A stretch of 64,000 bases of DNA from Planctomycetales bacterium (lineage in GTDB: Bacteria > Planctomycetota > Phycisphaerae > SM23-33), in NCBI GenBank assembly GCA_030612725.1, contig JAUWNJ010000004.1, positions 62,001 to 126,000 of the forward strand, in the 5' to 3' direction. The notes below the pieces were generated by a model. That model was not told where the DNA came from, searched no databases, and saw only the letters and a list, made by a program, of their open reading frames with translations. The position numbers and the translations under genes are program-made. This document shows positions 19,440-57,966 of this stretch, in pieces (within the stretch, counting starts at the first letter, position 1; each line of letters starts with the position of its first letter).

Positions 19440-19561
19440 AAGTGCAATGGATTGCAGTAGCGGCGGCCGTGGCCGTGCTTCTGATCGTAACCGGCTGTAA
19501 CGGTACGGGCGACATGGGCGGACAACCGGTTTGGCGAACACCAAGTAGCCATGCACGTTGA
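19436..19561 (+). CDS. 41-residue phage lipoprotein
   Basis: Basic start, hydrophobic stretch AVAAAVAVLLIV, then the lipobox VTGC at residue 21, followed by a 20-residue polar tail. The ATG overlaps the previous stop (ATGA), GGAAGGAG precedes it, and its end overlaps the Mom-like gene by 11 bases. A processed product would be a 21-residue lipopeptide. Candidates are an Rz1-like spanin part or a superinfection-exclusion lipoprotein. No Rz partner is visible. Confidence 0.6.
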   Translation: MKVQWIAVAAAVAVLLIVTGCNGTGDMGGQPVWRTPSSHAR

Positions 19562-23294: not shown

Positions 23295-24104
23295 ATGCCT
23301 ACACTGACCGAAAAGATCGACAGCCGCGAGTGGACCACCGGCGAGAAGCCGACGGTTACAATGCACTACACACTCGACGGCACGCCCGACGACCTTACAG
23401 CCAAGATGCTCCTGCTGAACTCGACGCCCACCGAATACGACGGTCTGGTGCGCGACGAGTGCACGCTCGATCCGATCTTCGTCGATACCACCACCGGCCA
23501 GGGCAAGTGGGAATGCACGGTCCGCTACGTCGCTCCGGAAAACACCCAGCCGCCCGTCGGCGAGTCGTCCTTTTCCTTCGACACCGGCGGCGGTACGCAG
23601 CACATCACGCAGTCCATCACCACCGTCAGCAAGTACGCCCCGCCGGGCAAGACCGCTCCCGACTTCAAGGGGGCCGTCGGCGTTACGCACGACAACGTCG
23701 AGGGCGTGGACATTACCGTTCCGGTCTATAACTTCTCCGAGACGCACTACATCGATGATGGAGATGTGAACAAGGGTGCCTATTTTGCACTGACCGGCAA
23801 GACCAACAACGCCGCCTGGAAGGGTTTCGCCGCCGGCGAGGTCCTGTTCCTGGGCGCATCCGGCTCAAAACGCGGCAGCGACGACTGGGAAATCACCTTC
23901 CGCTTCGCCGCCAGTCCGAACAAGACCGGCCTGACCGTCGGCGACATCGTCGGCATCGACAAGAAGGGCTGGGAGTACATGTGGGTCCGCTACGCCGATG
24001 CCGAGGACGCCGTCGCCAAGGCCATAGTCAAGAAGCCGGTGGCCGTGTACGTCGAGAAGGTCTACGAGGACGGCGACTTCTCGACTCTGGGGATCGGGAC
24101 GTGA
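23295..24104 (+). CDS. Distal tail protein, 269 aa
   Basis: Beta-rich protein beginning LTEKIDSREWTTGEKPTVTM. It contains an inner 92-residue segment (about 92-183) absent from a second copy at 54747-55280 that is otherwise very similar. Located after the tape measure, so probably a baseplate or tip component. The stop overlaps the next GTG (GTGA). Family not recognised. Confidence 0.65.
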   Translation: MPTLTEKIDSREWTTGEKPTVTMHYTLDGTPDDLTAKMLLLNSTPTEYDGLVRDECTLDPIFVDTTTGQGKWECTVRYVAPENTQPPVGESSFSFDTGGGTQHITQSITTVSKYAPPGKTAPDFKGAVGVTHDNVEGVDITVPVYNFSETHYIDDGDVNKGAYFALTGKTNNAAWKGFAAGEVLFLGASGSKRGSDDWEITFRFAASPNKTGLTVGDIVGIDKKGWEYMWVRYADAEDAVAKAIVKKPVAVYVEKVYEDGDFSTLGIGT

Positions 24105-24895
24105 GCGACCACCTCAAGAAAGTCAAGTCCGGCGACGCGCTGGTCATCCCAGCCCAGACATTCAATACGTTTATCGACGCCGCCCGCGACTTCCGCAGCC
24201 GCCAGCAGGGACGCGCCCAAACCGCCCAACAGACCTTCCGTTCCAGCGGCATTATCCTTGTCAAGAACGCCAGCGGCTACGACCAGAACCGCTTCGCCGT
24301 CATCGGCATCGACTCACCCGTTATCACGCCGACGGACAACGAGGATGAATTCAAGAACCGCATTGCACTGCGCGGCGTTGTGCCGGTCGAGGATGAGCAC
24401 ATCGGGCGATTCGTGATCATCGCCGAGCCACTGGCTGACGGCGAGATTGGACGGGCATTCGCCCATGGTATCTGCCCGGTGAAGGTCAACGTGGAGGATG
24501 AAGCGCACACCTTCGCTGATATCGAAGACGCCCAGACTCAGTACCTGATTAGCGGCACGTCGGGTGCGGCCCAAATCCTCTGGGCCGAGTCCGGCATCGG
24601 TGAAGTCTGGGCCATCGTGCGACTCGGCGTCCCCTCCATCGGCACGCACGAGAACCCCAAGGTCCTCGGCGGCAGTGGCGAGACAGCCGACATCGAAGAA
24701 TGGGACGTTGATAACCAGGAGACCGGCTACGACGGCGTCCAGTTCAAGGCCATTCGGCTCTACTGGTCCGGCAATTCCGGCGACCCGGTCTATCAGTTCA
24801 TCCGCACGCCGACGTATGACTCCATTGGTCGTTTGGTCTTCGTCTCGTCCGAGGTGCGTAGCGTCGCCTTCGACACCGGCCCGTGTGAGGTATAG
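24101..24895 (+). CDS. Distal tail / tip protein, 264 aa
   Basis: GTG start overlapping the previous stop. The N-terminus SDHLKKVKSGDALVIPAQTF and NTFIDAARDFRSRQQGRAQ is almost identical to a relic at 53471-53698. The body is beta-rich with many Ile, Gly and Asp. This N-terminal block precedes tail tip proteins in other phages I associate with this type. Function inferred from location. Confidence 0.6.
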   Translation: MSDHLKKVKSGDALVIPAQTFNTFIDAARDFRSRQQGRAQTAQQTFRSSGIILVKNASGYDQNRFAVIGIDSPVITPTDNEDEFKNRIALRGVVPVEDEHIGRFVIIAEPLADGEIGRAFAHGICPVKVNVEDEAHTFADIEDAQTQYLISGTSGAAQILWAESGIGEVWAIVRLGVPSIGTHENPKVLGGSGETADIEEWDVDNQETGYDGVQFKAIRLYWSGNSGDPVYQFIRTPTYDSIGRLVFVSSEVRSVAFDTGPCEV

Positions 24896-25863: not shown

Positions 25864-26150
25864 CGCAACACACAAAGGAAAACTTCGCCCGCTACCTCGG
25901 CACCGGCCAAATCATCCGTCGTCGGAATTTGTCCGTCCGCGTCGCTCACACCGCCACCAACCGCACTCAACAAGTCTCTCGACAGACCACCGACCCTAAG
26001 GTCGTCGCCGAAACCAAACGCCGCTTCGACATTTGCAAATCCTGCGAACACAGCCGCGACAACGCCTTCGAATGCGACCTTCACCCCGGCTGCTGCTTCG
26101 GCAAATTCCGTAGCAATCCCGAAAGCCAATGCCCGCTCGGGAAATGGTGA
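25860..26150 (+). CDS. Small Cys-rich phage protein, 96 aa
   Basis: ATG overlaps the previous stop (ATGA). The last 38 residues form a Cys cluster, CKSCEHSRDNAFECDLHPGC followed by CFGKFRSNPESQCPLGKW, likely to bind zinc. The same C-terminal block is found fused to another gene's start in the relic at 53471-53698. Last gene of the structural operon. Confidence 0.6.
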   Translation: MTQHTKENFARYLGTGQIIRRRNLSVRVAHTATNRTQQVSRQTTDPKVVAETKRRFDICKSCEHSRDNAFECDLHPGCCFGKFRSNPESQCPLGKW

Positions 26151-27008: not shown

Positions 27009-27087
27009 TGTCCGGACGGGAGTCGGGGCTGCTCGGATGAGTGGCTCCGACACCGCCATAGGACAAGTGTTGCATGAGGAAACCAGC

Positions 27088-27681
27088 GTGAAGACGAAGA
27101 TAGAAAATATCGTTGACATCCAAATCGGCTACCAGTTTCGGGAGAAACTGGACATGGCCTTGGATGGCACGCATCAGGTGATCCAGGCGAAGAACATCGA
27201 TGCGGAGAATGATCACCGGCTGAATTTCACGAGCATCGTCCGGGTGACGCTGAAGCGGGACGCTAAGAAATACGTGGTCAATAATGGCGATGTCATTTTC
27301 CTATCCAAAGGCCGTCGGAATTACGCCACGCTGATTGAGGGGTTATCCTCGGATACCAAGGCCATCGCCGCAGGATACTTCTTCATTCTCAGGCCGAAGG
27401 TCGAAACCATCCGAACGGACTACCTTGCCTTGGCGATCAACGAACCGTCGGCCCAGAGTTATTTGAAGAGTGTGGCGAGCGGCAGCGGCATGCCGTTTAT
27501 CTCTAAGCAGGCGTTTGCCGCCCTTGAGATTGATATACCGGCGGCCGAAACGCAGGAAAAGGTTGTCAAACTACACCAACTTTCGTTTAGGGAGAGTGCC
27601 TTACTGAAGCGGTTAGAGCAGAAACGAAATAAACTTATCCGTGGCATCTGTCTTAAGGCTATTAGGCAAGCAGCGCGGTAA
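27088..27681 (+). CDS. Single-TRD type I specificity-like protein (half HsdS)
   Basis: 197 residues from GTG 27088, which has GAGGAAACC upstream; a frame-compatible ATG at 27037 is the alternative. IENIVDIQIGYQFREKLD opens one target-recognition domain, and LEQKRNKLIRGICLKAIR closes it with the conserved helix. Normal HsdS has two such domains (about 400 residues), as does the gene at 31935. Half-size S subunits can dimerise or come from another system. It sits 14 bases before hsdM. Confidence 0.65.
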   Translation: MKTKIENIVDIQIGYQFREKLDMALDGTHQVIQAKNIDAENDHRLNFTSIVRVTLKRDAKKYVVNNGDVIFLSKGRRNYATLIEGLSSDTKAIAAGYFFILRPKVETIRTDYLALAINEPSAQSYLKSVASGSGMPFISKQAFAALEIDIPAAETQEKVVKLHQLSFRESALLKRLEQKRNKLIRGICLKAIRQAAR

Positions 27682-27695
27682 ACCAAGGAGAAATC

Positions 27696-29186
27696 ATGGC
27701 AAGCAAACTAACCCAAAAGGAAATCGAGAACATTGTATGGCGGGCGTGCGACACGTTCCGCGGGGCCATCGACCCATCGGAGTATAAAAACTACATCTTG
27801 ACTATGCTCTTCGTGAAATTTCTCAGCGACTTGGCCAAGGACAAGCGCGAAGAATACATGAAGAAGTACAATGGCGACGAGAAGCGAGTCGAGCGAGCCA
27901 TGAGCCGCGAGCGCTTCGTTGTGCCGCCTGAGTGCGATTTTGATCACCTCTACGCCAAGCGTGACGCGGCGAACATCGGAGAACTGATCAACGTCGCTTT
28001 GGAAGGAATAGAAGATGCCAACAAGGCCAAACTAGAAAACGTCTTCCGCAACATTGACTTTAACTCCGAGCCCGCCCTCGGCCAAACGAGGGATCGCAAC
28101 CGCCGCCTCCGAAACCTTCTGGACGATTTTGCCGAGGTCGATTTGCGTCCGTCGAACCTGAACGGCCGGGATATCATTGGCGACGTATATGAGTACCTCA
28201 TTGGCCGCTTTGCAGCCGGAGCAGGCAAGAAGGCGGGCGAATTCTACACGCCGCCGGAGGTCTCAACGTTGCTGGCAAGGTTACTCGCTCCTAAATCCGG
28301 CGACCGTATCTGCGACCCGGCTTGCGGGTCCGGCTCGCTGCTGATCAAGGTTGGCAGACAGGTCGGCTCGGAAAATTTCTCCCTGGCCGGGCAGGAATCT
28401 AACGGCAGCACATGGGCGCTGTGCAAGATGAACATGTTCTTGCACGGCATGGATTCGGGCCGCATAGAGTGGTGCGATACAATCAACAACCCCCGGCTCA
28501 TCGAGGGCGACGACCTGATGAGGTTCAACGTCGTGGTAGCCAATCCCCCGTTCAGCCTGGATAAATGGGGTCAGGAGCACGCCGAGACCGACCGTTTTCG
28601 CCGTTTCACTCGCGGCATTCCCCCCAAGAGCCGTGGCGACTATGCGTTTATCTCCCACATGGTCGAGATCGCTCTGCACGGCGAGGGTAAGGTAGGCGTA
28701 ATTGTACCGCACGGCGTGCTGTTCCGCAGCGGCAGTGAAGGCAAAATCCGACGGAAATTCTTGGAAGAGAACCTCATCGAAGCCGTCATCGGCCTGCCGC
28801 CTAACCTCTTCTACGGCACCGGCATACCGGCCGCAATCTTGCTGTTCAACAAGGGCAAGAAGAAAAAGGGCGTTCTTTTCATCGATGCCAGCCGGGAATA
28901 CCAGAACGGCACGAACCAGAACTATCTCAGGCCGGAGGACCTCGACAAGATCGTCACCACCTTCCAGGCTTTCCAAACCGTGGATAAGTACGCCTATCGA
29001 GCCACGTTTGACGAGATTGCCGAGAATGACTTTAACCTCAACATTCCTCGCTATGTGGATACATTCGAGGAGGAAGAGGAAATCGACATTCAGGCAGTGC
29101 AGAGAGAAATTGCCGAGATAGAGGCGCAACTCGACGAGACGCGCAGGGAAATGGCGGGCCACATGAGGGAACTGGGGTTGGAATAA
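27696..29186 (+). CDS. hsdM: Type I restriction-modification methyltransferase subunit
   Basis: 496 residues with AAGGAG before the ATG. An N-terminal helical domain is followed by the AdoMet motif DPACGSGSLL (near residue 208) and catalytic NPPFSLD (near residue 284), the gamma-class N6-adenine order. GEFYTPPEV marks the usual HsdM region. The C-terminal 50 residues are acidic coiled coil that contacts HsdS. It is followed after two bases by the CBASS effector gene, not by hsdS. Confidence 0.93.
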   Translation: MASKLTQKEIENIVWRACDTFRGAIDPSEYKNYILTMLFVKFLSDLAKDKREEYMKKYNGDEKRVERAMSRERFVVPPECDFDHLYAKRDAANIGELINVALEGIEDANKAKLENVFRNIDFNSEPALGQTRDRNRRLRNLLDDFAEVDLRPSNLNGRDIIGDVYEYLIGRFAAGAGKKAGEFYTPPEVSTLLARLLAPKSGDRICDPACGSGSLLIKVGRQVGSENFSLAGQESNGSTWALCKMNMFLHGMDSGRIEWCDTINNPRLIEGDDLMRFNVVVANPPFSLDKWGQEHAETDRFRRFTRGIPPKSRGDYAFISHMVEIALHGEGKVGVIVPHGVLFRSGSEGKIRRKFLEENLIEAVIGLPPNLFYGTGIPAAILLFNKGKKKKGVLFIDASREYQNGTNQNYLRPEDLDKIVTTFQAFQTVDKYAYRATFDEIAENDFNLNIPRYVDTFEEEEEIDIQAVQREIAEIEAQLDETRREMAGHMRELGLE

Positions 29187-29188
29187 CC

Positions 29189-30337
29189 ATGTCGAGCACA
29201 GCAATACCAGGCAAAGTGAAACTCCGCCTCTGGGTTAAAGCCGGAGGTCGATGTCAGTACGCCGGATGCAACAAACCACTCTGGCGCGACGATCTGACTA
29301 TGGCTGATATGAACCGCGCCTACATCGCTCACATCATTGCCGATTCACCCAATGGGCCTCGAGGAGATGCCGTGCTCTCACCGCAATTGGCCGACGATAT
29401 CAGCAACCTGATGCTGTTGTGCGACGAGCACCACCGGTTGATCGACCATGAGGGCAAAGATGACCACTCGGTCGAGACGCTTCAATGCATGAAGCGCGAA
29501 CACGAGCAGCGGATCGAAACCGTCACTAGCATAGATTCGGATAGGCAAAGCCACATTCTGCTCTACGGAGCCAACGTGGGCGACCATAACTCCTCGGTAT
29601 CCTATCGCAAAGCAAAATTGGCTATGTTGCTCGACAAGCGATATCCGGCGTCCCCCCATCCATTGTTGTTAGGAATGGTCAACAGTTCGTTTCGTGATCG
29701 AACGGAAGAATTCTGGCGAATCGAGAGCGACCACCTCCGCAATATGGTCCAGCAGCAGATTCGTCCACAGTTGGCTAGTGGCGGCATTGAGCATCTTTCG
29801 GTCTTTGCGCTCGCTCCACAACCGCTACTTATGCTCCTCGGCTATCTGCTTTCTGATATCCCCGCCGCCCAAGTCTACCAGCTCCACCGCGAACCGCAGG
29901 ATTGGTGCTGGCAAAACGATTCCGACGGGTTCGAATACATGGTTCAAGAGCCTGGTGAAGCCACGGGGCAGCCAGCCCTGGTGCTGTCGCTCAGCGCGAC
30001 GATCATGGACGACCGCATCAGTGCTGTGCTGGGGGACGACGCAGCAATCTGGCGTGTGACCGTACCCGAGCCGAACAACGATTTCCTGAAGTCACGCCGG
30101 CAACTCCAACAATTCCGCGAGATAATGCGTCAGTTGCTGAACAGTATCAAGGCCCGGCATGGCCAAGACGCCGTACTTCACGTCTTTCCCGCCGCACCCG
30201 TTGCCGTCGCCGTTGAAATGGGGCGGATTATTATGCCCAAGGCGGATGTGCGGTTACGCATCTATGACCAAAACAACGACCTCGGCGGCTTCATGCACGC
30301 CTTGGACCTCGCAACAGCACAGGGAGGTGCTAAATGA
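29189..30337 (+). CDS. cap5: CBASS effector: HNH endonuclease-SAVED (Cap5-like)
   Basis: 382 residues. Residues 15-85 are an HNH nuclease: CQYAGC, IAHIIADSPNG and NLMLLCDEHHRLID provide metal and catalytic residues. The rest is a SAVED domain, with the typical FALAPQPLLMLLGYLLSD and VYQLHREPQDWCW. Known Cap5 proteins bind a cyclic nucleotide through SAVED, assemble and cut DNA, killing the infected cell. The stop overlaps the CD-NTase ATG by four bases, giving the usual two-gene unit, here set inside a type I restriction operon. Confidence 0.88.
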   Translation: MSSTAIPGKVKLRLWVKAGGRCQYAGCNKPLWRDDLTMADMNRAYIAHIIADSPNGPRGDAVLSPQLADDISNLMLLCDEHHRLIDHEGKDDHSVETLQCMKREHEQRIETVTSIDSDRQSHILLYGANVGDHNSSVSYRKAKLAMLLDKRYPASPHPLLLGMVNSSFRDRTEEFWRIESDHLRNMVQQQIRPQLASGGIEHLSVFALAPQPLLMLLGYLLSDIPAAQVYQLHREPQDWCWQNDSDGFEYMVQEPGEATGQPALVLSLSATIMDDRISAVLGDDAAIWRVTVPEPNNDFLKSRRQLQQFREIMRQLLNSIKARHGQDAVLHVFPAAPVAVAVEMGRIIMPKADVRLRIYDQNNDLGGFMHALDLATAQGGAK

Positions 30338-31872
30338 CTGAAACCCAATACAGACAGCAACTGAACCTGATCCTCGGCGATTTGGCCGATGAACTGGATG
30401 TCCCGCCGTCCAAGTATGAGGAGGCCAAGGAGCACTACGACGCTGTCGGAACCTGGCTCGGCGAGGACGATTCGGAACTGGCCTCCTACGGCCCTGTGAT
30501 TTATCCACAGGGATCGTTCGCTTTGGGCACTGCGGTCAAGCCAATTGGCGATGACGACTACGATGTCGATGCCGTTTGCTCGCTTCAACTTGACGAGGAC
30601 CAAGTTAGCCAACCACTTCTCAAGAAGATGGTCGGTGACCGGCTAAAGCATCCCCACAGCCGCTACAGGAACATGCTCGACCCCGCAGATGGCGGCCGCC
30701 GATGCTGGACCATCAAATATGCCGATGCTTCCAAGTTTCACTTGGACGTGCTTCCGGCCATCCCCGATGAATATGCCTGGCTCATCGCTTTGGGTGTACC
30801 CGAGCAGTTGGCCAAGTACACCATCTGCATCACCGACAGGAATACATGGGACACGGATATTGATTGGCCGAAGAGCAACCCCAAGGGGTATGCGGCCTGG
30901 TTCAAAAACCAGATGCTGGTCCGGCTGGAGGAGGGCAGACGCACCGTCGCTATGCAGAAGAAGGTCGAAGTTCAGCAAGTTCCTGATTACGAGGTACGCA
31001 CGCCGCTGCAGCGGGTTGTCCAATTGCTCAAACGCCACCGCGACTTGCGTTACAACGGCGACGACGATAAGCCCGTCTCCATCATCATCACGACCCTCGC
31101 GGCCCAGGCCTACAATAATGAAGCGGACATTGTTGATGCACTCCTGAATGTCGTTCCGGGCATGCGCGACGCCATTGAGGAGCGGGACGGCATTTTGTGG
31201 GTGCCGAATCCCGTTAACCCGGAGGAGAACTTCGCCGACAAATGGGCCGAGACGCCCCGAAAACAGGAGATTTTCTTTGAATGGTTGGCTGTCGTCGAGC
31301 AGGAACACAGAAACCTGCTGACAAGTCGCGGCTTCGAGAAGGTCGGAACCTACCTGACCGAGGCCTATGGTTACCGCGATGCCTCCGCGGCTATGACGAA
31401 ATACGCCAGCAGAGCCAGCCAGCCAGAGGCTGAGAGCAACCTCCGAGCCGGCAGTATCATCCAAGCAGCCTCCACACCGCTCGCACGCTTTGATGTCCCG
31501 CATCGTGAGCCCCTACGCTGGCCGGAGCAACCCCGTTACGATGTGACGATTTCTGCTACTGCCTCAAGAAAAGACAAGAGTTCATTTCAGTTCAATTCTG
31601 ATTCAGTGCCGCTGCCGGAGCACTGGGACCTTAAGTTCACGGCCACCACAACTGCTCCGGAACCTTTTGACGTCTACTGGCAAGTCGTTAACACAGGTGA
31701 AGAGGCTGCATCACATGGCGCGCGCGGACTCCGCGGCATAATCTTCCCAGGAACCAACCTGAATCGCGACGAGAAAACTGAGTACACCGGATTCCACTGG
31801 ATCGAGTGCTTCCTCGTCAAAGACGGCGTGTGTGTGGCGCGCAGTGGCGAGTTCGTGGTTAACATTGAATAA
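30334..31872 (+). CDS. CBASS CD-NTase with AGS-C sensor domain
   Basis: 512 residues. The nucleotidyltransferase signature is QGSFALG (Gly60-Ser61) with DYDVD (Asp77 and Asp79), and a third Asp in FHLDVLP (about 138). The C-terminal 90 residues, PEPFDVYWQVVNTGEEA to GFHWIECFLVKDGV, match the AGS-C domain found in such enzymes. It should make a cyclic oligonucleotide on phage infection that activates the SAVED effector. Pairing with Cap5 suggests clade G, but this is inference. No Cap2/Cap3 genes are nearby, so it would be a short (type I-like) CBASS. Confidence 0.88.
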   Translation: MTETQYRQQLNLILGDLADELDVPPSKYEEAKEHYDAVGTWLGEDDSELASYGPVIYPQGSFALGTAVKPIGDDDYDVDAVCSLQLDEDQVSQPLLKKMVGDRLKHPHSRYRNMLDPADGGRRCWTIKYADASKFHLDVLPAIPDEYAWLIALGVPEQLAKYTICITDRNTWDTDIDWPKSNPKGYAAWFKNQMLVRLEEGRRTVAMQKKVEVQQVPDYEVRTPLQRVVQLLKRHRDLRYNGDDDKPVSIIITTLAAQAYNNEADIVDALLNVVPGMRDAIEERDGILWVPNPVNPEENFADKWAETPRKQEIFFEWLAVVEQEHRNLLTSRGFEKVGTYLTEAYGYRDASAAMTKYASRASQPEAESNLRAGSIIQAASTPLARFDVPHREPLRWPEQPRYDVTISATASRKDKSSFQFNSDSVPLPEHWDLKFTATTTAPEPFDVYWQVVNTGEEAASHGARGLRGIIFPGTNLNRDEKTEYTGFHWIECFLVKDGVCVARSGEFVVNIE

Positions 31873-31934
31873 AGGGAATACACGCATGAATACGGTGCGT
31901 TCAATGATAGCCCGGCATATGAAGGAGCCGAGAT

Positions 31935-33167
31935 ATGGTACCTGACGGGTGGATCGAAACAAGGTTAGGAAACGTAGTGGAAGTAAATCCGCGACGGGCA
32001 AACAACCTAAGCCCCGAAGATCAGGTTACATTCCTGGCGATGCCGGATGTGGCCGTAGGGGGCGGGATCGCTAATCGGCAAGTTCGCGATCTATCTGAAG
32101 TCAATAACGGTTACACGGCCTTTCGTGAGAAAGATGTTCTCATTGCCAAAATTACGCCATGTTTCGAGAACTGCAAGGGTGCGATTGCGACCGGATTGAC
32201 GAATGGGTACGGATTCGGGAGTACCGAGTTTCACGTACTTCGCGCAACGGAAAAATGTGACATACATTTCATCTACTATCTGACAATGTCGCATCACTTT
32301 AGGGGACGAGGTGCGGCCAACATGACAGGCTCTGCTGGCCAAAAGCGAGTCCCCACTGATTTCATTAGGGCTTACCATTTTGCCCTGCCACCTCTCATTG
32401 AACAACACAGGATATCTCAGACCCTCTTCACCTGGGACCGAGCCATTGAGCAGGCATCTCGTCTGATTTCGGCCAAGACGAGGATCAAGAAGGCCCTGAT
32501 GCAGCAACTGCTCACCGGCAAACGACGATTCAAGGAGTTCGTGAAATCAACTGTGATGATTGACACCCACTTCGGGCTGGTGCCTGAGGACTGGCCGTAT
32601 ATCAAGATGAGCCAGGTTGCTCGTGAGGTGTCGGAGCGAAACGGGAAAAGGAACTCGATTCCGGTACTGTCGTGTACCAAATACGACGGCCTGGTGGACT
32701 CGCTGAAGTACTTCGGCAAGCAAATCTTCAGCGACGATACATCGAATTACAAACTGGTCCGTCGTGGCCAGTTTGCCTATGCGACTAACCATATCGAGGA
32801 AGGTTCAATTGGCCTGCTTACCCACCTGGAAGCGGGCTTGGTCAGCCCGATGTACACGGCCTTCGAGACAAACGACAAGGTTCACGCGCCGTTCTTATAT
32901 GCCCTGTTCAAGACCGAGTTATACAGACACATCTTCCAGGTGAACACTAATGCTTCAATCAATAGGCGCGGCAGCCTTCGCTGGAAGCAGTTCGCCGAAA
33001 TCCGAGTGGCGCTGCCGAGCCTCGACGAGCAGAAAAACATCGCGTCCGTCCTGGCGGCCGTCGACGCTGAAATTAACTTGCTGTGCCAGCGAATGGGCCG
33101 GCTTAAGGAGCAGAAGCGCGGCCTGATGCAGAAATTACTCACGGGCAAGGTGCGCGTGAAAGTGTAA
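31935..33167 (+). CDS. hsdS: Type I restriction-modification specificity subunit
   Basis: 410 residues, GAAGGAG ribosome site. Two target-recognition domains, each closed by a conserved helix: ALMQQLLTGKRRFKE (near residue 195) and GLMQKLLTGKVRVKV at the end. It would set the bipartite DNA target of the HsdM/HsdR complex. Sixty bases separate it from the CD-NTase gene, so it may have its own promoter. Confidence 0.92.
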   Translation: MVPDGWIETRLGNVVEVNPRRANNLSPEDQVTFLAMPDVAVGGGIANRQVRDLSEVNNGYTAFREKDVLIAKITPCFENCKGAIATGLTNGYGFGSTEFHVLRATEKCDIHFIYYLTMSHHFRGRGAANMTGSAGQKRVPTDFIRAYHFALPPLIEQHRISQTLFTWDRAIEQASRLISAKTRIKKALMQQLLTGKRRFKEFVKSTVMIDTHFGLVPEDWPYIKMSQVAREVSERNGKRNSIPVLSCTKYDGLVDSLKYFGKQIFSDDTSNYKLVRRGQFAYATNHIEEGSIGLLTHLEAGLVSPMYTAFETNDKVHAPFLYALFKTELYRHIFQVNTNASINRRGSLRWKQFAEIRVALPSLDEQKNIASVLAAVDAEINLLCQRMGRLKEQKRGLMQKLLTGKVRVKV

Positions 33168-42935: not shown

Positions 42936-43150
42936 TCATTGCTTTGCCAGCATGAGCCTGTAAATCAGGCGGTTGGTCGCGCTCTCGGCGGCCAACAACC
43001 CCTTGCCCATCAGACCCTTAAGGTCGCGTTGGAGCGTCCGGCGGTTGGTGCCTGAGCACAGGGCCTCCAAATGCCAAAAACGAGAGCGGTTATGAAGAGG
43101 GTTGCGTTCGGGGAGGTCCGAGGCGGCAATCGAGCACGCCGCCGCCTTTT
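42936..43150 (-). pseudogene. Winged-helix protein C-terminal fragment
   Basis: The minus strand encodes RFWHLEALCSGTNRRTLQRD then LKGLMGKGLLAAESATNRLI and stops at 42936, a typical winged-helix segment. Reading upstream meets a TAA near 43150 with no start codon, so this is a gene remnant. It lies opposite the start of the DUF2924 frame. Confidence 0.45.
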
Positions 43151-43406
43151 CTTACACGCCGACCACGCCAGCCAACGGCCATGTCGATTCCGCCGCAATC
43201 TCGACGCTCGGCTGCCGATGCCCGGCACGCGACTGAAGCGGGACTACAAAGGTCATGCCTACGAGGTCGAGGTCCTCGATAATGGTTTCGCTTATGATGG
43301 CGAGGTCTATCAAAGCCTGTCCGCCGTTGCTACTGCTATCACCGGCGGCCACTGGAATGGCTACCTGTTCTTCAACTTGAAGGACCCCGGCAAGGAGAAT
43401 GAATGA
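43071..43406 (+). pseudogene. DUF2924 protein, likely 5'-truncated
   Basis: From about 43195 the frame encodes PMPGTRLKRDYKGHAYEVEV and YQSLSAVATAITGGHWNGYL, the conserved half of DUF2924. The preceding 40 codons are basic and do not resemble the family, and they run opposite a winged-helix remnant. DUF2924 genes are usually directly upstream of large serine recombinases, as here. The stop overlaps the recombinase start. Confidence 0.6.
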
Positions 43407-43834
43407 TCGCCAACGCCGACAAGAAGATTCGATGTGCCATCTATACCCGCAAGAGCACCGAAGAGGGCCTGGAACAGGATTTCAATTCGCTTGATGCCCA
43501 GCGCGAAGCCGCCGAGGCGTACATTGCCAGCCAGAAGTCCGAAGGTTGGGTCTGCCTGTCGACGCATTACGGCTTTGTCGGTTACGTTATAGCCGTGGCC
43601 TTTGGGGGTGTCGGTGGCGTGTTGTATTTATCAGTAGTGTTTATCCTGAATCGTAACGATGGGGCAGGAGAAATGTCCGTCGGAGAAGAAGACGCCGCTT
43701 TTCTGATCGGCCTTCAGTTTGGCGTTCTGAAAGTCGAAACCGGCAGGCAGTTCGTTGATGATTTCAATCCGGCTCCAGGGCACGATTCTTTTGCAAATCG
43801 CTCCCACTGTAATGTCTTTGGGGCCGTTGACTGA
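43403..43834 (+). pseudogene. Large serine recombinase, truncated after about 55 codons
   Basis: [20 protein letters not shown] then [13 protein letters not shown] is the catalytic start of a large serine integrase (Ser in TRKST, Arg and Gln in LDAQREA). Similarity ends near 43570, and the frame then runs into non-homologous sequence to a stop at 43834. Normal proteins of this kind are over 450 residues. It marks the phage/chromosome edge or a deletion junction. Confidence 0.75.
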
Positions 43835-50946: not shown

Positions 50947-51648
50947 ATGTCAAAGAAACGCATCATCATCGTAGAAGATGAACCTGACATGGCCGAACTG
51001 GTGGCCATGCGGCTCCAGCGTGAAGGATACATCGTCGAGACGGTCGGCGACGGGGCCGAGGCGCTGGAGATGATCCGCTGCTCGCCTCCGGACCTGGTGC
51101 TGCTTGACCTGATGCTTCCGGGGATGCCGGGGACGGAAGTGGCGACGAAACTTCGCAACGACGCCCGCACCGCCGGCGTGCCCATCATCATGCTGACGGC
51201 CAGGAGCGAGGAAAGCGACATTGTCGTCGGGCTGCACCTCGGAGCCGACGATTACATCACCAAACCTTTCAGCATGTCGGTTCTCGTAGCGCGGATATCG
51301 GCCCTGATGCGCCGAAGCCGGGATGTCGCCTCATCCGACGGTCTGATGCTCGAGGTCGGCCCAATAAAAATAAACGTCGAACGTCACCTGGTGGAAGTGA
51401 ACGGGAAAAGAATAACGCTGACGCTGACCGAGTTCCGTTTGCTGGTGGCGATTGTCTCAGCCAAAGGACGAGTGCTGGATCGGAATCAACTGATGGATCA
51501 GGCGATGGGAATAGACACGGTGGTTACGGACCGCACCATTGACGTTCACCTGACCGCGTTGCGGAAGAAACTGGGGAAAGCGCGAAAATACATCCAGACC
51601 GTTCGCGGACTGGGATACAAACTGGCGGATGAAAATGATACGGCATAG
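50947..51648 (+). CDS. phoB: Phosphate response regulator PhoB
   Basis: 233 residues. Receiver domain with acidic pocket (EDEPD near 10-14), phospho-acceptor Asp54 in VLLDLMLPG and Lys in TKPFS. The OmpR-type winged helix shows LTLTEFRLL and DRTIDVHLTALRKKLG. It binds direct repeats of the Pho-box kind. The last 20 bases overlap phoR, and pstS is divergent. Confidence 0.95.
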   Translation: MSKKRIIIVEDEPDMAELVAMRLQREGYIVETVGDGAEALEMIRCSPPDLVLLDLMLPGMPGTEVATKLRNDARTAGVPIIMLTARSEESDIVVGLHLGADDYITKPFSMSVLVARISALMRRSRDVASSDGLMLEVGPIKINVERHLVEVNGKRITLTLTEFRLLVAIVSAKGRVLDRNQLMDQAMGIDTVVTDRTIDVHLTALRKKLGKARKYIQTVRGLGYKLADENDTA

Positions 51649-53422
51649 GTTCTTCTGGAAACTCTTCGCGGGCAACCTGTTGCTGATGGCGATTATCCTG
51701 TCGGTCGGTGGAGTCCTCTCGTATCGCCACCTCAACGCCGACTATCAGCGCGAAAACACCGAAGACCAGCACCGCATGGCCCGGATATCCCAGTTGCATT
51801 TCCAGCATTCCTGGCCTCGCCCGGCGAGCGAGATTGATGTTGAATGTAAGCAGATGTTCGGCGATTCGCCGATGCGGATGACCGTGATAGACGCCGACGG
51901 CCGCGTCCTCGGCGACAGTCAGGCCGATCCGCTTACCATGGAAAACCACAAGACCGACGACAGGCCTGAGGTTCTCGACGCCTTACAAGGAAAAGAAAGC
52001 CAAGACACCCGCTCCAGTGAAACCTTGGGGGTGGAGTTTCGATATTTCGCCGAACCAATCAGGAAAGACAACAAAATCGTCGGCGTCGTTCGTGTTGCTA
52101 TGCCCATCCGAGCCATCGCGGAGGGTCGAGCCGTCATCCGCAATGCACTGCTTTGGGCGGCCCTGGCTGCGGTGGCCGTTGCGGTTGTGATTGCGGGGTT
52201 GCTGGGATGGATATGGCATAGACCACTGGAGCAAATCACACGGACAGCACGGGCAGTCGCCGCCGGCGACCTCACCGCAAAGGCCCACGTTCGCGGCTCG
52301 GACGAACTTTCCCAATTGGCAACGGCCCTGAACGAAATGCGACAAAACCTTGCCGCCCAGATTGATACGATTACCTCACAGCGCGAACACCTGTCGGCCG
52401 TCGTTCAGAACCTCCGCGAAGGCGTTATCGCACTGGACGGACAGGGACATATAGTCCTTATGAATAAGTCGGCAGCCGACATGCTCGACGCCGATGCCGG
52501 AGATGCAACAGGTCAATATATCCAGACGGTCGTGCGAGTACCGGGCGTTCTGGACGTATTCAATCAGGCCGACGAAACGGGCAAATCTGTGGGCAGGCAA
52601 GTCGAGGTTATTATAGGCAATGTGCAGCGGACACTCGACTTGCATGCAGCCAAGGTCTCCGGAACCGCCCCGGACGGAATCGCCGTATTGCTGGTGCTGC
52701 GGGACATCACAGAGATCGCCCGCGCCGCCGCGATGAAGGCCGATTTCGCCGCAAATGCATCACACGAACTTCGCACCCCGCTGGCCACTCTTCGAGCAGC
52801 CGTCGATTCGCTGCTTCACACACAAGGCGAAGAGCCGGAAAATCTCAGCAGGATATTGCCTATTCTGGACCGGCACGTCGCGCGTCTGGAAGATATGACA
52901 AAGGACCTGCTCGACCTGAATATCATCGAAACCGCCAGGCAGCAACTCAGGACAGAGAAGATTGAATTGGCCTCGCTCGTCGGCTGGGCCGAGGAGCGTT
53001 TCGCCCAGGCCGCCGGCGACAAGAACATCGAACTGAAAATCGCCGCCGACCAGCCGGCCTCCGTGTTCGAGTCCGACCGGACGCTGATACAACTGATCCT
53101 TCAAAATCTGCTCGACAACGCGATAAAATTCACGCCCGCCGACGGTCGGGTCGAATGTGATCTCCGGCTCGAAGATAAGCACCTGCGGATACAGGTACGC
53201 GACACAGGCTGTGGTATCCCAGCCGAGATGACCGAGAGGGTTTTCGAGCGGTTCTTCCAGATCGAACCGTCCCGCACCGGCGATACGAAGGTCCGCGGCA
53301 CGGGCCTGGGCCTGGCCATCGTCAAGCACGCCACCGAACGCCTCGGCGGGAGTGTGACGCTCGATAGTGAACCCGGCAAAGGAACAACTGTAATCGTGAG
53401 TATCCCAAAAATATCTGATTGA
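51629..53422 (+). CDS. phoR: Phosphate sensor histidine kinase PhoR
   Basis: 597 residues, ATG inside the end of phoB. Two TM helices (about 8-28 and 170-190) flank a periplasmic domain of about 140 residues, larger than in enteric PhoR. Then HAMP (PLEQITRTARAVAAGDLTAK), PAS (VVQNLREGVIALDGQG), HisKA with ANASHELRTPL (His near 378) and HATPase with DNAIKFTP, DTGCGIP and GTGLGLAI. Phosphorylates PhoB when phosphate is low. Confidence 0.93.
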   Translation: MKMIRHRFFWKLFAGNLLLMAIILSVGGVLSYRHLNADYQRENTEDQHRMARISQLHFQHSWPRPASEIDVECKQMFGDSPMRMTVIDADGRVLGDSQADPLTMENHKTDDRPEVLDALQGKESQDTRSSETLGVEFRYFAEPIRKDNKIVGVVRVAMPIRAIAEGRAVIRNALLWAALAAVAVAVVIAGLLGWIWHRPLEQITRTARAVAAGDLTAKAHVRGSDELSQLATALNEMRQNLAAQIDTITSQREHLSAVVQNLREGVIALDGQGHIVLMNKSAADMLDADAGDATGQYIQTVVRVPGVLDVFNQADETGKSVGRQVEVIIGNVQRTLDLHAAKVSGTAPDGIAVLLVLRDITEIARAAAMKADFAANASHELRTPLATLRAAVDSLLHTQGEEPENLSRILPILDRHVARLEDMTKDLLDLNIIETARQQLRTEKIELASLVGWAEERFAQAAGDKNIELKIAADQPASVFESDRTLIQLILQNLLDNAIKFTPADGRVECDLRLEDKHLRIQVRDTGCGIPAEMTERVFERFFQIEPSRTGDTKVRGTGLGLAIVKHATERLGGSVTLDSEPGKGTTVIVSIPKISD

Positions 53423-53435
53423 AAAGATACACCTT

Positions 53436-53454
53436 CCCAAGTTTGATTCTTGGG
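53436..53454 (+). terminator. Weak hairpin after phoR
   Basis: CCCAAG and CTTGGG pair around a 7-base loop, 14 bases after the phoR stop. There is no T-run, so termination strength is doubtful. Confidence 0.35.
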
Positions 53455-53470
53455 CATCAACTATTACGTG

Positions 53471-53698
53471 TTATCCCGTAGTGTGTTTCGGGGCCTGTTT
53501 TCTCCACTTGCCCGTAGGGCATTGTTTTGTTGGATTGCTACGGGATCTACCAAAGCAACAGCCGGTTTGCTGGGCAGTTTGGGCGCGTCCCTGCTGGCGG
53601 CTGCGGAAGTCGCGGGCGGCGTCGATAAACGTGTTGAACGTCTGGGCCGGGATGACCAGCGCATCGCCGGACTTGACTTTTTTGAGGTTGTCTGGCAT
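53471..53698 (-). pseudogene. Chimeric relic of two phage tail genes
   Basis: Starts NLKKVKSGDALVIPAQTFNT, like the gene at 24101. After 45 residues it changes to GCCFGRSRSNPTKQCPTGKW, matching the end of the gene at 25860. A deletion has therefore joined the start of one tail gene to the end of another further downstream, removing about 1.8 kb. GGGAGG precedes ATG 53698, so a 75-residue product could still be made. Confidence 0.7.
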
Positions 53699-53745
53699 TT
53701 CGCCTCCCTGCCCACTCAACGCCATCGCCGTCCATGGTCAATGGC

Positions 53746-54633
53746 CTATGCCTCCGTCCCAGAGCCGCCTGCGGAATCCTCAGCACCTTCTTGAACTGGC
53801 TTTGCCGCCAAGCCGCTAGCAACGAGCCTGCCAAATTCTGCAACATGTCTGCCCAAACCGTCAGCTCCGGGGAATAGCGAGGCACCAGTGATGTTCATCA
53901 TGCGGAGATTGGCAAGAAACTGCACCTTCGCCGAAGACGTGATGACCATCTTGTGCAGAAACGGTTCCGCGCTAGCCTTCTTGGCGATCTCGTCCATTAC
54001 TTCGTCGTGGGCTCGCCTGGGATCCTCGCACACCATGTAGAACCCTTGCTGGGCGTACATTCGTTCGGGACGCTGCATTTTCTGGAAGACGGCACATATT
54101 CCCGGGGGAGCGGAAGGCGTCTCAGCTTTGCCGGCAAGTGCCTTGTCAACGCGGCCCAGGCTCACATCGGTCTTTGGCGGAGCTTGCAGAGCCTTCACCA
54201 ATGCTGGGTAATAATGCATCCACAGCACTCCATCCTCCTCTGGTGCTTCCCGAACGGCGAAGTATGCGGCGACATAGGGAGAGAAAGTCCAGTCAAGAAG
54301 TCGGGTGGGAGCGCCGTACTGCTGCATGGCCATGAGCCAACCCAGCAACTGATAAGCGTTGCGTGGATCGGGAATCTCCCAATTCGGTAGATTCCGGTGT
54401 CCATCTTGCCGGAATTCCTGCAGCAGGAGCCTTTCAATCCCAAGTGCCGCCTCGAACGTACAGTTACTGGGAAGCTGGCGGGCAATTGAAGGCTGAAGCC
54501 TCCAAGTCGATGATTTTCTCTCCTGCCCACGAAAACCCATTTGCCCATAGGGCTTGTCCGGCTTGGGAATGAATTTGACAATATAGTCGAGGAACCCTTG
54601 CCAGTTTTCAACAGTGTGTTCATTTCTTGGCAT
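53746..54633 (-). CDS. FRG-domain protein
   Basis: 295 residues. The FRG domain shows its name motif in MGFRGQERKSSTWRLQPSIA and the conserved QQYGAPTRLLDWTFSPYVAA. FRG proteins are found in mobile elements and defence loci; their biochemistry is not settled. The gene separates two phage tail-gene relics that are adjacent (4-base overlap) in the intact phage, so it was acquired as cargo. Codon and base composition are lower in GC than neighbours. Confidence 0.8.
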   Translation of the reverse strand: MPRNEHTVENWQGFLDYIVKFIPKPDKPYGQMGFRGQERKSSTWRLQPSIARQLPSNCTFEAALGIERLLLQEFRQDGHRNLPNWEIPDPRNAYQLLGWLMAMQQYGAPTRLLDWTFSPYVAAYFAVREAPEEDGVLWMHYYPALVKALQAPPKTDVSLGRVDKALAGKAETPSAPPGICAVFQKMQRPERMYAQQGFYMVCEDPRRAHDEVMDEIAKKASAEPFLHKMVITSSAKVQFLANLRMMNITGASLFPGADGLGRHVAEFGRLVASGLAAKPVQEGAEDSAGGSGTEA

Positions 54634-54746
54634 ATCTAATCTCCTTCACTGCATATTACAGATTATCAAATATCTCAATTGTATTCTTCTTAAATCACCT
54701 GATCTTGGCTTCATCTGACGAACCAACGACTTCGGCCGACTACATC

Positions 54747-55280
54747 CTACGTCCCAATCCCCAATCCGGAAAAGTCGCCGTCCTCATAGACCTTCTCGAC
54801 ATAGACGGCCACGGGCTTCTTGACTATGGCCTTTGCGACGGCGTCTTCGGCGTCGGCATAGCGGACCCACATGTATTCCCAGCCCTTCTTGTTGATGTTG
54901 ACGATGTCGCCGACCGTCAGGCCGGTCTTGTTCGGACTGGCGGCGAAGCGGAAGGTGATTTCCCAGTCGTCGCTGCCGCGTTTCGAGCCGGACGCGCCCA
55001 GGAACAGTACCTCGCCGACGGGCGGCTGGGTGTTTTCCGGCGCGACGTACCGGACCGTGCATTCCCACTTGCCCTGTCCGGTGGTGGTATCGACGAAAAT
55101 CGGCTCGAGCGTGCACTCGTCGCGCACCAGGCCGTCATACTCGGTGGGCGTCGAGTTCAGCAGGAGCATCTTGGCCGTCAGGTCGTCGGGCGTGCCGTCG
55201 AGTGTGTAGTGCATTGTAACCGTCGGCTTCTCGCCGGTGGTCCACTCGCGGCTGTCGATTTTTTCGGTCAGTGTGGCCAT
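54747..55280 (-). CDS. Shortened copy of a distal tail gene
   Basis: 177 residues, nearly identical in protein sequence to the 269-residue gene at 23295 but lacking 92 internal residues in frame; GGCGAG stands at both ends of the missing part. The end has TAG where the intact phage has TGA. Still open, so possibly translated, but its partners are lost. It belongs to a decayed inverted prophage tail region. Confidence 0.75.
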   Translation of the reverse strand: MATLTEKIDSREWTTGEKPTVTMHYTLDGTPDDLTAKMLLLNSTPTEYDGLVRDECTLEPIFVDTTTGQGKWECTVRYVAPENTQPPVGEVLFLGASGSKRGSDDWEITFRFAASPNKTGLTVGDIVNINKKGWEYMWVRYADAEDAVAKAIVKKPVAVYVEKVYEDGDFSGLGIGT

Positions 55281-55378
55281 GGTAACGTGAAGGCTACGAA
55301 GTCATTGAAAAGGTAGCGGTTGACATAAATGTCACTCCCGATATGATTCAGCGTATGGGACTTGGGGAGAACTAGATC

Positions 55379-55615
55379 ATGAAGCGACTCGAATCGTGGA
55401 CACGCCCCCATATGCGCAAACTTCTTCTTATCTTCGGATGCGGAGGTGTGGCGGGAACGGTTGCGATGGGGCTGTTGGCCTTGTTGTTTAAGTGGATGGG
55501 CTGGGGCGGAGTTTCCTCTGGACTGTTCTTTATACCTTGGATGGTCGGAGGTCTCCTTATTATACCCGCTGCATTCCAGCAGGGTGTCAAGTTGGAGAGA
55601 GGTAGGCAGCAGTAG
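55379..55615 (+). CDS. Small two-helix membrane protein, 78 aa
   Basis: GGGGAGAAC precedes the ATG. After a basic start (RLESWTRPHMRK) come two hydrophobic helices, LLLIFGCGGVAGTVAMGLLA and GGVSSGLFFIPWMVGGLLII, and a basic end. Opposite in direction to the phage relics on both sides and placed where the intact phage carries another cargo gene. Function unknown. Confidence 0.5.
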   Translation: MKRLESWTRPHMRKLLLIFGCGGVAGTVAMGLLALLFKWMGWGGVSSGLFFIPWMVGGLLIIPAAFQQGVKLERGRQQ

Positions 55616-55679
55616 GTCCTCCGCTGAGGGCTCGCAATTGCCTTTCCTGTCCTTGTGACTCATTCGCTACCTTCCCAAA

Positions 55680-55860
55680 TCATGTGAAGCTCACTCCCTC
55701 GGCGTTGCGTAGCGGACGGGTGTTCTTCTCGATCTTGTCGATGCCGTTGGCCATGCGGTCGGTTACGCCGCCGGATTGGAGGCCCAGGACGTTGGCGGCG
55801 ACAAAGGTTCCCTGCGAGCCGATCTTCGCGGCCTGACGGTTCACGCCAAGGCCCGGCAGC
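55680..55860 (-). pseudogene. Tape measure protein, C-terminal fragment
   Basis: On the minus strand NRQAAKIGSQGTFVAANVLG then LQSGGVTDRMANGIDKIEKN repeats the end of the tape measure at 22130-22295, with a different last few residues and stop. The remainder of the gene is missing. About 25 bases after its stop, ATGAGTCACAAGG resembles the ATGTCACAAGG found after the intact tape measure. Confidence 0.75.
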
Positions 55861-56007
55861 GAGAGCGCCCGGGCTTTCGTCGTATCTTCGCTCGACTTGC
55901 TCTGAAGTCTCGGCTTACAGACCTGAGTGGCTTTTGCCGGCAGACGTAGTTACTACTCGTTCTGAAAAATTTGCGGGAAATCGACTTTGTCATGCAATAT
56001 AGTACTG

Positions 56008-56017
56008 ACTGATCAGT
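56008..56017. promoter_or_regulatory. Palindrome ACTGATCAGT upstream of efflux operon
   Basis: A perfect 10-bp palindrome, preceded by GTACTG, 75 bases before the efflux operon. The ACTG...CAGT form is common in operators of TetR-type repressors that control efflux genes. No regulator gene is adjacent. The interval 55861-56091 holds no gene that I can support. Confidence 0.35.
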
Positions 56018-56091
56018 TCTATCCAGTAATCGGTGGAGCAGTCAAGGGAACAAGGCCGTGACGAAAAGGGGCAGGCGAGCGGAGATCGGAA

Positions 56092-57966
56092 ATGAAAGTT
56101 TCACTACGGTTTATCTTTTTGCTGACATTGTGGCTCTGCTGCGTAACAGGATGTCGGCCTGCGGATTATCGGCGCGAGGCGGACAAGGTTGGTTACGGTA
56201 TCATTGGCAAGGCGCAGAAGCAGGCTTTTGGACGGACCGAGCCGTTCACCGTTGAACGTCCTGCAGATGCGTTACGCAGGAAACTCATGCTGAACCAGAG
56301 TTTGCCCCACGCCGGACCGGCGTCGTTGGGAACGGACAATCTCAAGCCGATCGCCCATTGGCCCGAAAAGGACTACCCCGCCCGTCCGGCAAAGTCGCAG
56401 CCCCAAGCGCCGTGGCGGAAGGATCGTTCACTGACGCTGGGCCTGACCGACGCGTTACAGGTGGCTGCGCTAAACAATCGGGAATACCAGACGCGAAAGG
56501 AGGACTTCTTCCGTACCGCCTTGGCGCTTGACCTGGAAGCGAACCAGTTCCGCAACCTTCTGTTCGGCGACGCAGAGTCGGAATTCAGTATGGACTACAG
56601 CGGCGAGAAACCGGTCCGTGGTCTGGCCAACACGGGCACTGTCTCCTGGCAGCGGAAACTCAAAACCGGCGCGCTACTGACGACAGGCTTTGCCATCGAC
56701 CTGGTCAAGTTACTCACGTTTGACCATTCTTCTTCTCTGGGGCTTTATGCGGACGCGACGATTACGATACCCTTGCTGCGAGGTTCCGGACGGCACATTG
56801 TAACGGAGCCTCTGACCCAGGCTGAGCGGGATGTAATCTATTCGCTGTACACCTTTGCGCGTTTCAAGCGGACGCTGGCGGTGAAAGTGGCAAGCGAGTA
56901 CCTCTCCGTGCTCCAGCAGTTAGACCAGGTTCAGAACGCCGAGGACAACTATCGCAGCCTCATTACCGGGACGCGCCGCGCGCGCCGCCTCGCCGACGCG
57001 GGGCGACTTCCGCAGATACAAGTGGACCAGGCCATGCAGGACGAGCTTCGGGCGCGGAATCGGTGGATCATCGACCAGCAGACATATGCCCGCCGAAGGG
57101 ACTCGTTCAAGATTACGCTCGGGCTGCCGACGGACGCCAACATCGACCTGGACCGCGACGAGTTGAAGCGATTGGCCAAAGCGGTCGTATCCGGTAGCGG
57201 GGCGACTGCGACCACACAACCAGCCGGGGCGACTTCGGCCCCTGCCAAGGCGCTGAGCGCCGACGTACCCGTCAAACTTGTCCAGCCAACCCGCAAAGGC
57301 GGCGGCCCGCTGGAAATGTCGGATGAGAAAGCGGTTTCAATCGCCCTGGACAATCGGCTTGACCTGCGGACGGCGCTGGGCGGGGTCTTCGACGCGCAGC
57401 GTCAGGTCGTGGTTATGGCTGACGCTTTGCGCGCCGGGCTGACCCTGACGGGCGCCGGACAGGCCGGAGCACGCCGCGGACTCGGTTCGGCCAGGATGCC
57501 AAACGCACACCTCAGGCCCGAAAAGGGTATTTACACAGCCGGTCTGCTTCTTGACCTTCCGCTGGAGCGAACCGCCGAGCGCAACGCTTATCGCAGCAGT
57601 TTCATCGCGTTGGAACGAGCGACCCGCGACCTTCAGGAAACCGAGGATCAGATAAAACTACAGGTGCGCGACGCCTTGCGGGGCCTCCTTCAGGCGAGAG
57701 AAAGCCACATGATTCAGGCGCGGGCGGTAAATCTGGCCAAGCGGCGTGTAAAGAGCACCGAGTTGTTCCTTCAGGCCGGACGAGCGGAAATCCGCGACGT
57801 CCTGGAGGCCCGGGAATCGCTCGTTTCGGCACAGAATGCTTTGACGGCGGCGCTGGTGAACTATCGCGTAGCCGAACTGGAACTACAGCGAGACATGGGC
57901 GTACTGGAAGTGGACGAGAAAGGGAATTGGCGTGAATACCAACCTGAAAAACCTAATCAACAATAG
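56092..57966 (+). CDS. TolC-family outer-membrane efflux lipoprotein
   Basis: 624 residues. The signal peptide ends in a lipobox (CVTGC, Cys near 21), so the protein is lipid-anchored like OprM. Two TolC-type helical repeats are visible: LTLGLTDALQVAALNNREYQ near 115 and DEKAVSIALDNRLDLRTALG near 410, with long coiled coils after each. A Thr/Pro/Ala linker separates them. It forms the exit channel for the pump encoded downstream; the next gene starts 35 bases before this one ends. Confidence 0.88.
   Translation: MKVSLRFIFLLTLWLCCVTGCRPADYRREADKVGYGIIGKAQKQAFGRTEPFTVERPADALRRKLMLNQSLPHAGPASLGTDNLKPIAHWPEKDYPARPAKSQPQAPWRKDRSLTLGLTDALQVAALNNREYQTRKEDFFRTALALDLEANQFRNLLFGDAESEFSMDYSGEKPVRGLANTGTVSWQRKLKTGALLTTGFAIDLVKLLTFDHSSSLGLYADATITIPLLRGSGRHIVTEPLTQAERDVIYSLYTFARFKRTLAVKVASEYLSVLQQLDQVQNAEDNYRSLITGTRRARRLADAGRLPQIQVDQAMQDELRARNRWIIDQQTYARRRDSFKITLGLPTDANIDLDRDELKRLAKAVVSGSGATATTQPAGATSAPAKALSADVPVKLVQPTRKGGGPLEMSDEKAVSIALDNRLDLRTALGGVFDAQRQVVVMADALRAGLTLTGAGQAGARRGLGSARMPNAHLRPEKGIYTAGLLLDLPLERTAERNAYRSSFIALERATRDLQETEDQIKLQVRDALRGLLQARESHMIQARAVNLAKRRVKSTELFLQAGRAEIRDVLEARESLVSAQNALTAALVNYRVAELELQRDMGVLEVDEKGNWREYQPEKPNQQ

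Follow-up and report, generated by a model that had tools for sequence, protein, structure and literature searches.

A second, inverted copy of phage tail genes was found on the minus strand at positions 53471-55860 of the window, the 64,000-nucleotide stretch of planctomycete DNA analysed here. In this region, termed copy B, the phage genes are reduced to short ends, or stubs, and two intact passenger genes lie between them. The explanation that we favour, with a probability of about one half, is that copy B represents a short array of two cargo cassettes set in the host's chromosome, made from a third member of the phage family, and that its stubs exchange cargo with phages. The stub-cargo-stub anatomy recurs in other genomes, takes tandem forms and carries cargo shared with phages. 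No description of such arrays was found in the literature, which was covered in part.

Relationship of copy B to prophage A

Prophage A, whose tail genes at 22.1-26.1 kb of the same window are matched by copy B, served as the reference. Its proteins match PHROG families for terminase, portal, capsid/protease, decoration, major tail and tape-measure proteins, and the genes that concern copy B were delimited as follows.

20298-22295, plus strand: tape measure (PHROG tail tape measure, 4e-45)
22353-23213, plus strand: slot-1 cargo of 286 aa, no known family (from the reading frames)
23295-24104, plus strand: tail gene (from the reading frames)
24101-24895, plus strand: next gene, with a four-base overlap with the tail gene

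Comparison of the window with itself, together with a more sensitive alignment, gave five matching blocks of 137, 267, 273, 129 and 49 bp. Their E-values, from 7e-120 to about 1e-6, far exceed chance. The similarity is discontinuous, the blocks making up about 36% of 53517-55838, and is interrupted by in-frame gaps, one of 92 codons within the tail gene and one of about 1.85 kb separating the next-gene and last-gene matches. The features of the locus are:

51629..53422, plus strand: phoR, host flank (ORF; phoR query tracked in relatives)
53517..53565, minus strand: C-terminal fragment of the last tail-region gene (GCCFG..RSNP..QCP.GKW); block 5, 53565-53517 against 26086-26134, 80%, added by the sensitive alignment
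53564..53698, minus strand: next-gene N-terminal stub (residues 1-45, from translation); block 4, 53692-53564 against 24107-24235, 93.0%
53746..54633, minus strand: FRG-domain gene, 295 aa, in slot 2, between the tail-gene C-end and the next-gene N-end
54747..55010, minus strand: tail-gene C-terminal stub (residues 183-269); block 3, 55021-54749 against 23830-24102, 91.6%
55011..55280, minus strand: tail-gene N-terminal stub (residues 1-90); block 2, 55277-55011 against 23297-23564, 95.5% DNA identity
55379..55615, plus strand: gene for a 78-aa small membrane protein, antisense cargo in slot 1, between the tape-measure C-end and the tail-gene N-end
55680..55838, minus strand: tape-measure C-terminal stub (prophage A residues 614-665); block 1, 55838-55702 against 22137-22273, 92.7% in the self-comparison; 89% to the sister-species phage
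55824..55890, no strand assigned: 68-bp sequence shared with a tRNA-Asn flank on the same contig, 93%, abutting the tape-measure stub
56092..57966, plus strand: TolC-like efflux gene, host flank (ORF; tolC query, 75% identical protein in genome G018)

An inverted second copy of the tail region had been proposed in a preliminary description of this DNA, and nucleotide alignment of copy B with prophage A bears this out: the similarity is extended, in five minus-strand blocks at 80-95.5% identity, and the order tape-measure end, tail gene, next-gene start was read correctly, as was the orientation. The divergence had been put at one base in 15-20, which is about right, the measured values being one in 12-22. 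The placement between phoR and the efflux operon is also correct. The term "decayed copy" is misleading: the phage pieces have neither frameshift nor internal stop, and the two intact passenger genes between them had been overlooked.

Copy B retains gene ends only. The two tail-gene stubs are fused in frame at a CGGCGAG repeat, giving a shortened tail ORF of 177 aa that is intact and in frame. The last-gene fragment lies in frame behind the next-gene stub, and this ORF continues to 53471. Several deletions and two insertions set copy B apart from an intact phage. No mutational decay in the form of stops, frameshifts or loss of codon bias was seen, and the frames are open. Because only short gene ends remain, in open frames and without such decay, the trimming was probably rapid, slow decay being the poorer fit.

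A three-way comparison of copy B, prophage A and an intact prophage of a sister species (G003:C75) covered 272 aligned codons. Identity was 91.7% between prophage A and copy B, 92.0% between copy B and the G003 phage, and 90.4% between prophage A and the G003 phage. Private changes, synonymous/nonsynonymous, numbered 18/3 in copy B, 23/7 in prophage A and 24/7 in the G003 phage. Since those of copy B are mostly synonymous, its pieces appear to have evolved as live phage genes until recently. The preliminary description favoured a related phage over a recent duplication, and this is supported by the near-equal distances of copy B from the two prophages. Judged from these sequences, copy B comes from a third phage, belonging to the family of prophage A, and is not a duplication. 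Had the tail region of prophage A itself been duplicated recently, the gene order would be identical, as it is. However, the divergence is 8% and mostly synonymous, another phage is equally close, and the tape-measure end of copy B (RNAEGVSFT) is like that of the sister-species phage and unlike that of prophage A (RNADRMAFQ); the divergence pattern and the equal closeness rule a recent duplication out, so that it deserves practically no weight.

phoR and the efflux operon (51629-57966) are adjacent here and were found at separate places in the more distant relatives examined; the position of copy B may be a rearrangement point between them. A search for an empty chromosomal phoR-efflux site found none, the contig of the nearest relative stopping inside phoR. 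No integrase-like ORF was seen within 53423-56091, no Rfam family matched at the locus, and the phage genes of copy B do not form an unbroken run accompanied by attachment sites or an integrase. Copies of the tRNA-Asn flank sequence occur at 55824-55890, at L008 15067-15134 and at L131 8135-8202; its presence both beside copy B and beside a serine recombinase in G003:C216 is no more than suggestive of an attachment-site flank.

The two passenger genes

The FRG-domain gene is preceded by AAGGAG, which by eye resembles a ribosome-binding site, and by an AT-rich leader of 113 bp (38% GC). Its product matches the Pfam FRG family at 4.4e-19 (69.6 bits against a curated cut-off of 25), the PADLOC candidate defence family PDC-S15 at 5.6e-38 and PHROG 4962 at 4.7e-27. 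In an alignment with 25 relatives, all five invariant columns and most conserved positions are kept. It shares with FRG-domain proteins and PDC-S15 both the domain and the motifs FRGQ, PTRLLDWT, R..Q and LFP.DG; unlike them, it is set within the ends of phage-tail genes, and its nearest relatives are just 38% identical. A pattern search of the viral contigs and genome contigs found no relative. The possibility that this is a known phage gene was set aside, as phage and plasmid records gave only distant matches.

The structure model of the FRG protein had a pLDDT of 80.7 and a pTM of 0.83. Comparison of the model with the PDB and with viral structures gave no significant match; several ADP-ribosyltransferases were among the weak PDB matches. 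The FRG domain has been placed in the ART superfamily, whose members are proposed to be NAD+-consuming immune effectors (PMC9503650). The chemistry of the copy B protein is inferred from its domain membership, and by sequence the gene appears to resemble a phage-defence gene.

The gene for the 78-aa protein has a promoter-like element, TTGACA-16-TATGAT at 55320-55347, with 11 of 12 positions matched. A full-length relative, 43% identical, lies beside host genes in genome G036; the membrane nature of the protein was judged by eye. The two cargo genes face opposite directions.

Cargo slots in phages and stub-bordered units in chromosomes

At least 93 relatives of the tail gene, 80 of them kept, were found in viral contigs, and relatives were also found in 34 of 100 related genomes; none was found by tblastn in 50,697 phage records, and none in cultured phages. 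The order tape measure, tail gene, next gene is conserved, and the spacing is mostly tight. At the tail/next-gene junction, 12 of the 88 measurable loci have at least 250 bp of extra DNA. At the tape-measure/tail junction (slot 1), which was assessed by tape-measure homology, a few loci have extra DNA; L012, for instance, has an EcsC-family gene there, in antisense orientation. Several viral contigs carry cargo at the holin/tape-measure junction. These three junctions are cargo slots in the phage family. In P2/P4-like phages, variable accessory genes, often defensive, occupy hotspots at fixed junctions between conserved phage genes (2022, PMC9122126). Variable cargo at a fixed junction is common to these phages and the family studied here, whereas the cargo of copy B lies outside a phage or satellite genome, is framed by short phage-gene ends and in relatives is sometimes in tandem. 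One 102-kb viral contig (IMGVR_UViG_3300048599_000897; L041, L042) has two differing tail-gene copies about 56 kb apart.

The layout of copy B, an upstream-gene C-end, cargo and a downstream-gene N-end, is also present in the chromosomes of further genera in this bacterial family. The cargo differs, and the units are sometimes in tandem:

G018:C220: two units, with an antisense GNAT gene of 364 aa and an antisense GNAT gene of 193 aa
G018:C92: tandem of tail-end/GNAT/next-start, then directly tail-end/FGE-sulfatase/next-start
G018:C195: one unit, with an ECF sigma gene and a 145-aa gene
G007:C158: one unit, with a methyltransferase
G007:C294: antisense 118-aa gene adjoining a tape-measure start
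G010:C58: 191-aa gene
G010:C94: three tandem tape-measure-start units, with SUKH, radical SAM and SUFU
G010:C111: two tandem holin-end/cargo/tape-measure-start units, with a 130-aa gene and a PD-(D/E)XK nuclease
G010:C248: single holin-end/cargo/tape-measure-start unit, 181 aa
G010:C133: portal C-end, HEAT protein, capsid N-end
G032:C9: antisense 164-aa gene adjoining a tape-measure start

The plan of G018:C220 is that of copy B, with one GNAT gene in the tape-measure/tail slot and the other in the tail/next slot. Its stubs comprise tape-measure residues 614-664, closely preceded by a stop codon, tail residues 1-46 and 243-269, and next-gene residues 1-40. The phage pieces can exceed a minimal stub: G010:C94 has a whole outer holin gene, with at least two phage-like genes upstream, and no holin end was found for the radical SAM unit. 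This locus contains repeats of 420-460 bp. Three G018 units have a common 31-bp frame-breaking insertion in the next gene together with different cargo, and in G003:C262 a tail-end/next-gene-start stub of about 160 bp has no cargo. Most of the genomes compared are drafts, and the units were found by searching with phage genes, so that only stub-bearing cargo is detectable. For some stubs with no known close phage, the apparent ends may be due in part to falling conservation. Furthermore, conservation is poor in the central part of the tape measure, and small internal fragments could escape detection.

The nuclease of G010:C111 is 57-60% identical to the product of a gene in viral contigs L043, L054 and L076. 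In L043 and L054, this gene lies antisense between holin and tape measure, as it does in G010:C111. The common nuclease implies that the chromosomal units share their pool of cargo with the phage slots, and transfer may have gone in either direction.

A palindromic repeat, GACGCTCCAAAGCT[A/T]TGGCGACGGAGCG, occupies the same position at the tail-gene end in two genera (L217 and L134 in G018; L218 in G007). A second palindromic repeat is the 31-bp insertion that breaks the next gene in the three G018 units. When the G018 palindromic insertions were used as a phage marker, none was found in viral contigs, and a scan of the genome collection gave only SM23_33. At the end of the G010:C111 array is an AAA_15 and DUF4276 pair (L239 581-2316) like the candidate defence systems HEC-01 and AriA-like.

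Proposed cassette exchange and its alternatives

For the proposed cassette exchange, copy B comprises two units, an arrangement seen both at this locus and in relatives. Cassette 1 is the tape-measure C-end, the 78-aa membrane gene and the tail-gene N-end, and cassette 2 the tail-gene C-end, the FRG gene and the next-gene N-end. The phage-gene ends of 80-270 bp would act as homology arms, through which cargo could pass by homologous recombination between the chromosome and infecting or resident phages. The cargo would land at gene junctions, with no phage gene broken. The FRG protein could be an ART-like effector, NAD+-consuming or otherwise toxic, that stops competing phages, and the 78-aa membrane protein may have a similar accessory role. 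Against this reading, no recombination event was observed among the loci examined, the search for an empty site found none, the FRG gene was found in no viral contig, its structure model gave no significant match, and the phage pieces of G010:C94 exceed minimal stubs.

The main alternative, a real possibility if one short of an even chance, is prophage decay with selective retention, in which useful cargo and the adjoining gene ends are kept, the rest is deleted, and tandem units arise by repeated integration at remnants. Phage cargo at gene junctions is already known, and grounded or cryptic prophages, phage DNA stuck in the chromosome that keeps genes possibly helpful to the host, are well described (PMC6379469). 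Copy B is like these in that pieces of phage structural genes lie in a chromosome. Stub ends necessarily adjoin cargo; as the remnants were found with phage-gene queries, retention also predicts cargo-adjoining stubs, and the long repeats in G010:C94 could mediate deletions. However, copy B has no long remnant, its stubs, short on both sides in a fresh locus, are free of mutational decay despite several deletions, and the stub-cargo-stub layout is repeated elsewhere. Moreover, the G003:C262 stub lacks cargo, and long capsid-gene stubs, the most detectable kind, were not seen except at contig edges. The three G018 units share a frame-breaking insertion yet carry different cargo, which also tells against retention.

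Integrons consist of tandem small cargo units with repeated borders and an integrase. The single-gene tandem units with repeated borders in G018:C92, G010:C94 and G010:C111 recall such arrays. In addition, the tape-measure stubs of copy B and G018:C220 begin at CAGGCC, at residues only a few codons apart, as might be expected of integrase-used recombination sites inside the phage-gene ends. However, the borders are protein-coding phage-gene ends that vary by slot (tape measure, tail, next gene, holin, portal), a variation not expected of a single site. The element has no integrase and no Rfam match, and a common cargo orientation is absent, the copy B genes being opposed and many relatives' cargo antisense; site-specific cassettes are accordingly improbable. 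A domesticated two-gene system, in which the 177-aa tail protein would sense or poison phage tail assembly and the FRG protein would be the effector, as in the tail-sensing Tha or tail-inhibiting Tai systems, would account for the intact shortened frame. Phage structural proteins can trigger bacterial defence (PMC11087260), and tail assembly is a possible defence target (PMC11364771). In the related units, though, the tail gene is often broken or down to 27 residues and the cargo varies, which makes such a system very improbable. The genome is a draft of 65 contigs, but an assembly artefact is scarcely credible, as the architecture also occurs in independently assembled genomes, such as that of Phycisphaerae bacterium SM23_33.

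Orphan toxin-immunity modules of CDI/Rhs systems combine partial homologous segments with cargo and could feed recombination with the full-length gene. The units described here are likewise arrays of partial segments and cargo; in contrast to those modules, their segments are pieces of phage structural genes and are unfused to the cargo. As a tentative extension of cassette exchange, this planctomycete family might keep chromosomal cargo libraries, each gene framed by 80-270 bp ends of two adjacent phage genes, from which infecting phages take up cargo precisely at junctions, bringing it to new hosts, and into which they write cassettes back, refreshing the arms. Such libraries would form a gene-cassette system powered by homologous recombination with phages, without an integrase, the arms being like those used in recombineering.

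Phages and hosts may thus trade genes through short end-pieces of phage genes. If this layout truly serves as a unit of exchange, it would account for the way in which accessory and defence genes enter phages precisely between essential genes, the long-standing moron puzzle. The signature of an upstream-gene C-end, an unknown gene and a downstream-gene N-end outside phages would then lead to new defence or accessory genes in uncultured bacteria. If selective retention is true instead, the signature still flags cargo worth testing, here the FRG gene.

Additional features were noted around prophage A. A Mom-like DNA modification gene (19551-20291) lies directly 5' of the tape measure and has counterparts of 74-96% identity in several viral contigs and in the G003 prophage. 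The right arm (27037-33167) encodes a SMODS/AGS_C nucleotide cyclase (CBASS-like), a type I specificity subunit, an HNH endonuclease and a methyltransferase-like gene, and is a probable defence cluster. DUF2924 and serine recombinase genes are present at both ends of prophage A (43071-43834; L009 4151-6207). The left copy is intact (522 aa) and the right copy breaks off after about 58 codons, which suggests that an element junction lies near 43.58 kb. The window's own genome also contains a second, more divergent prophage of the family (G000:C10:33700-47211), with a tail gene that is 48% identical.
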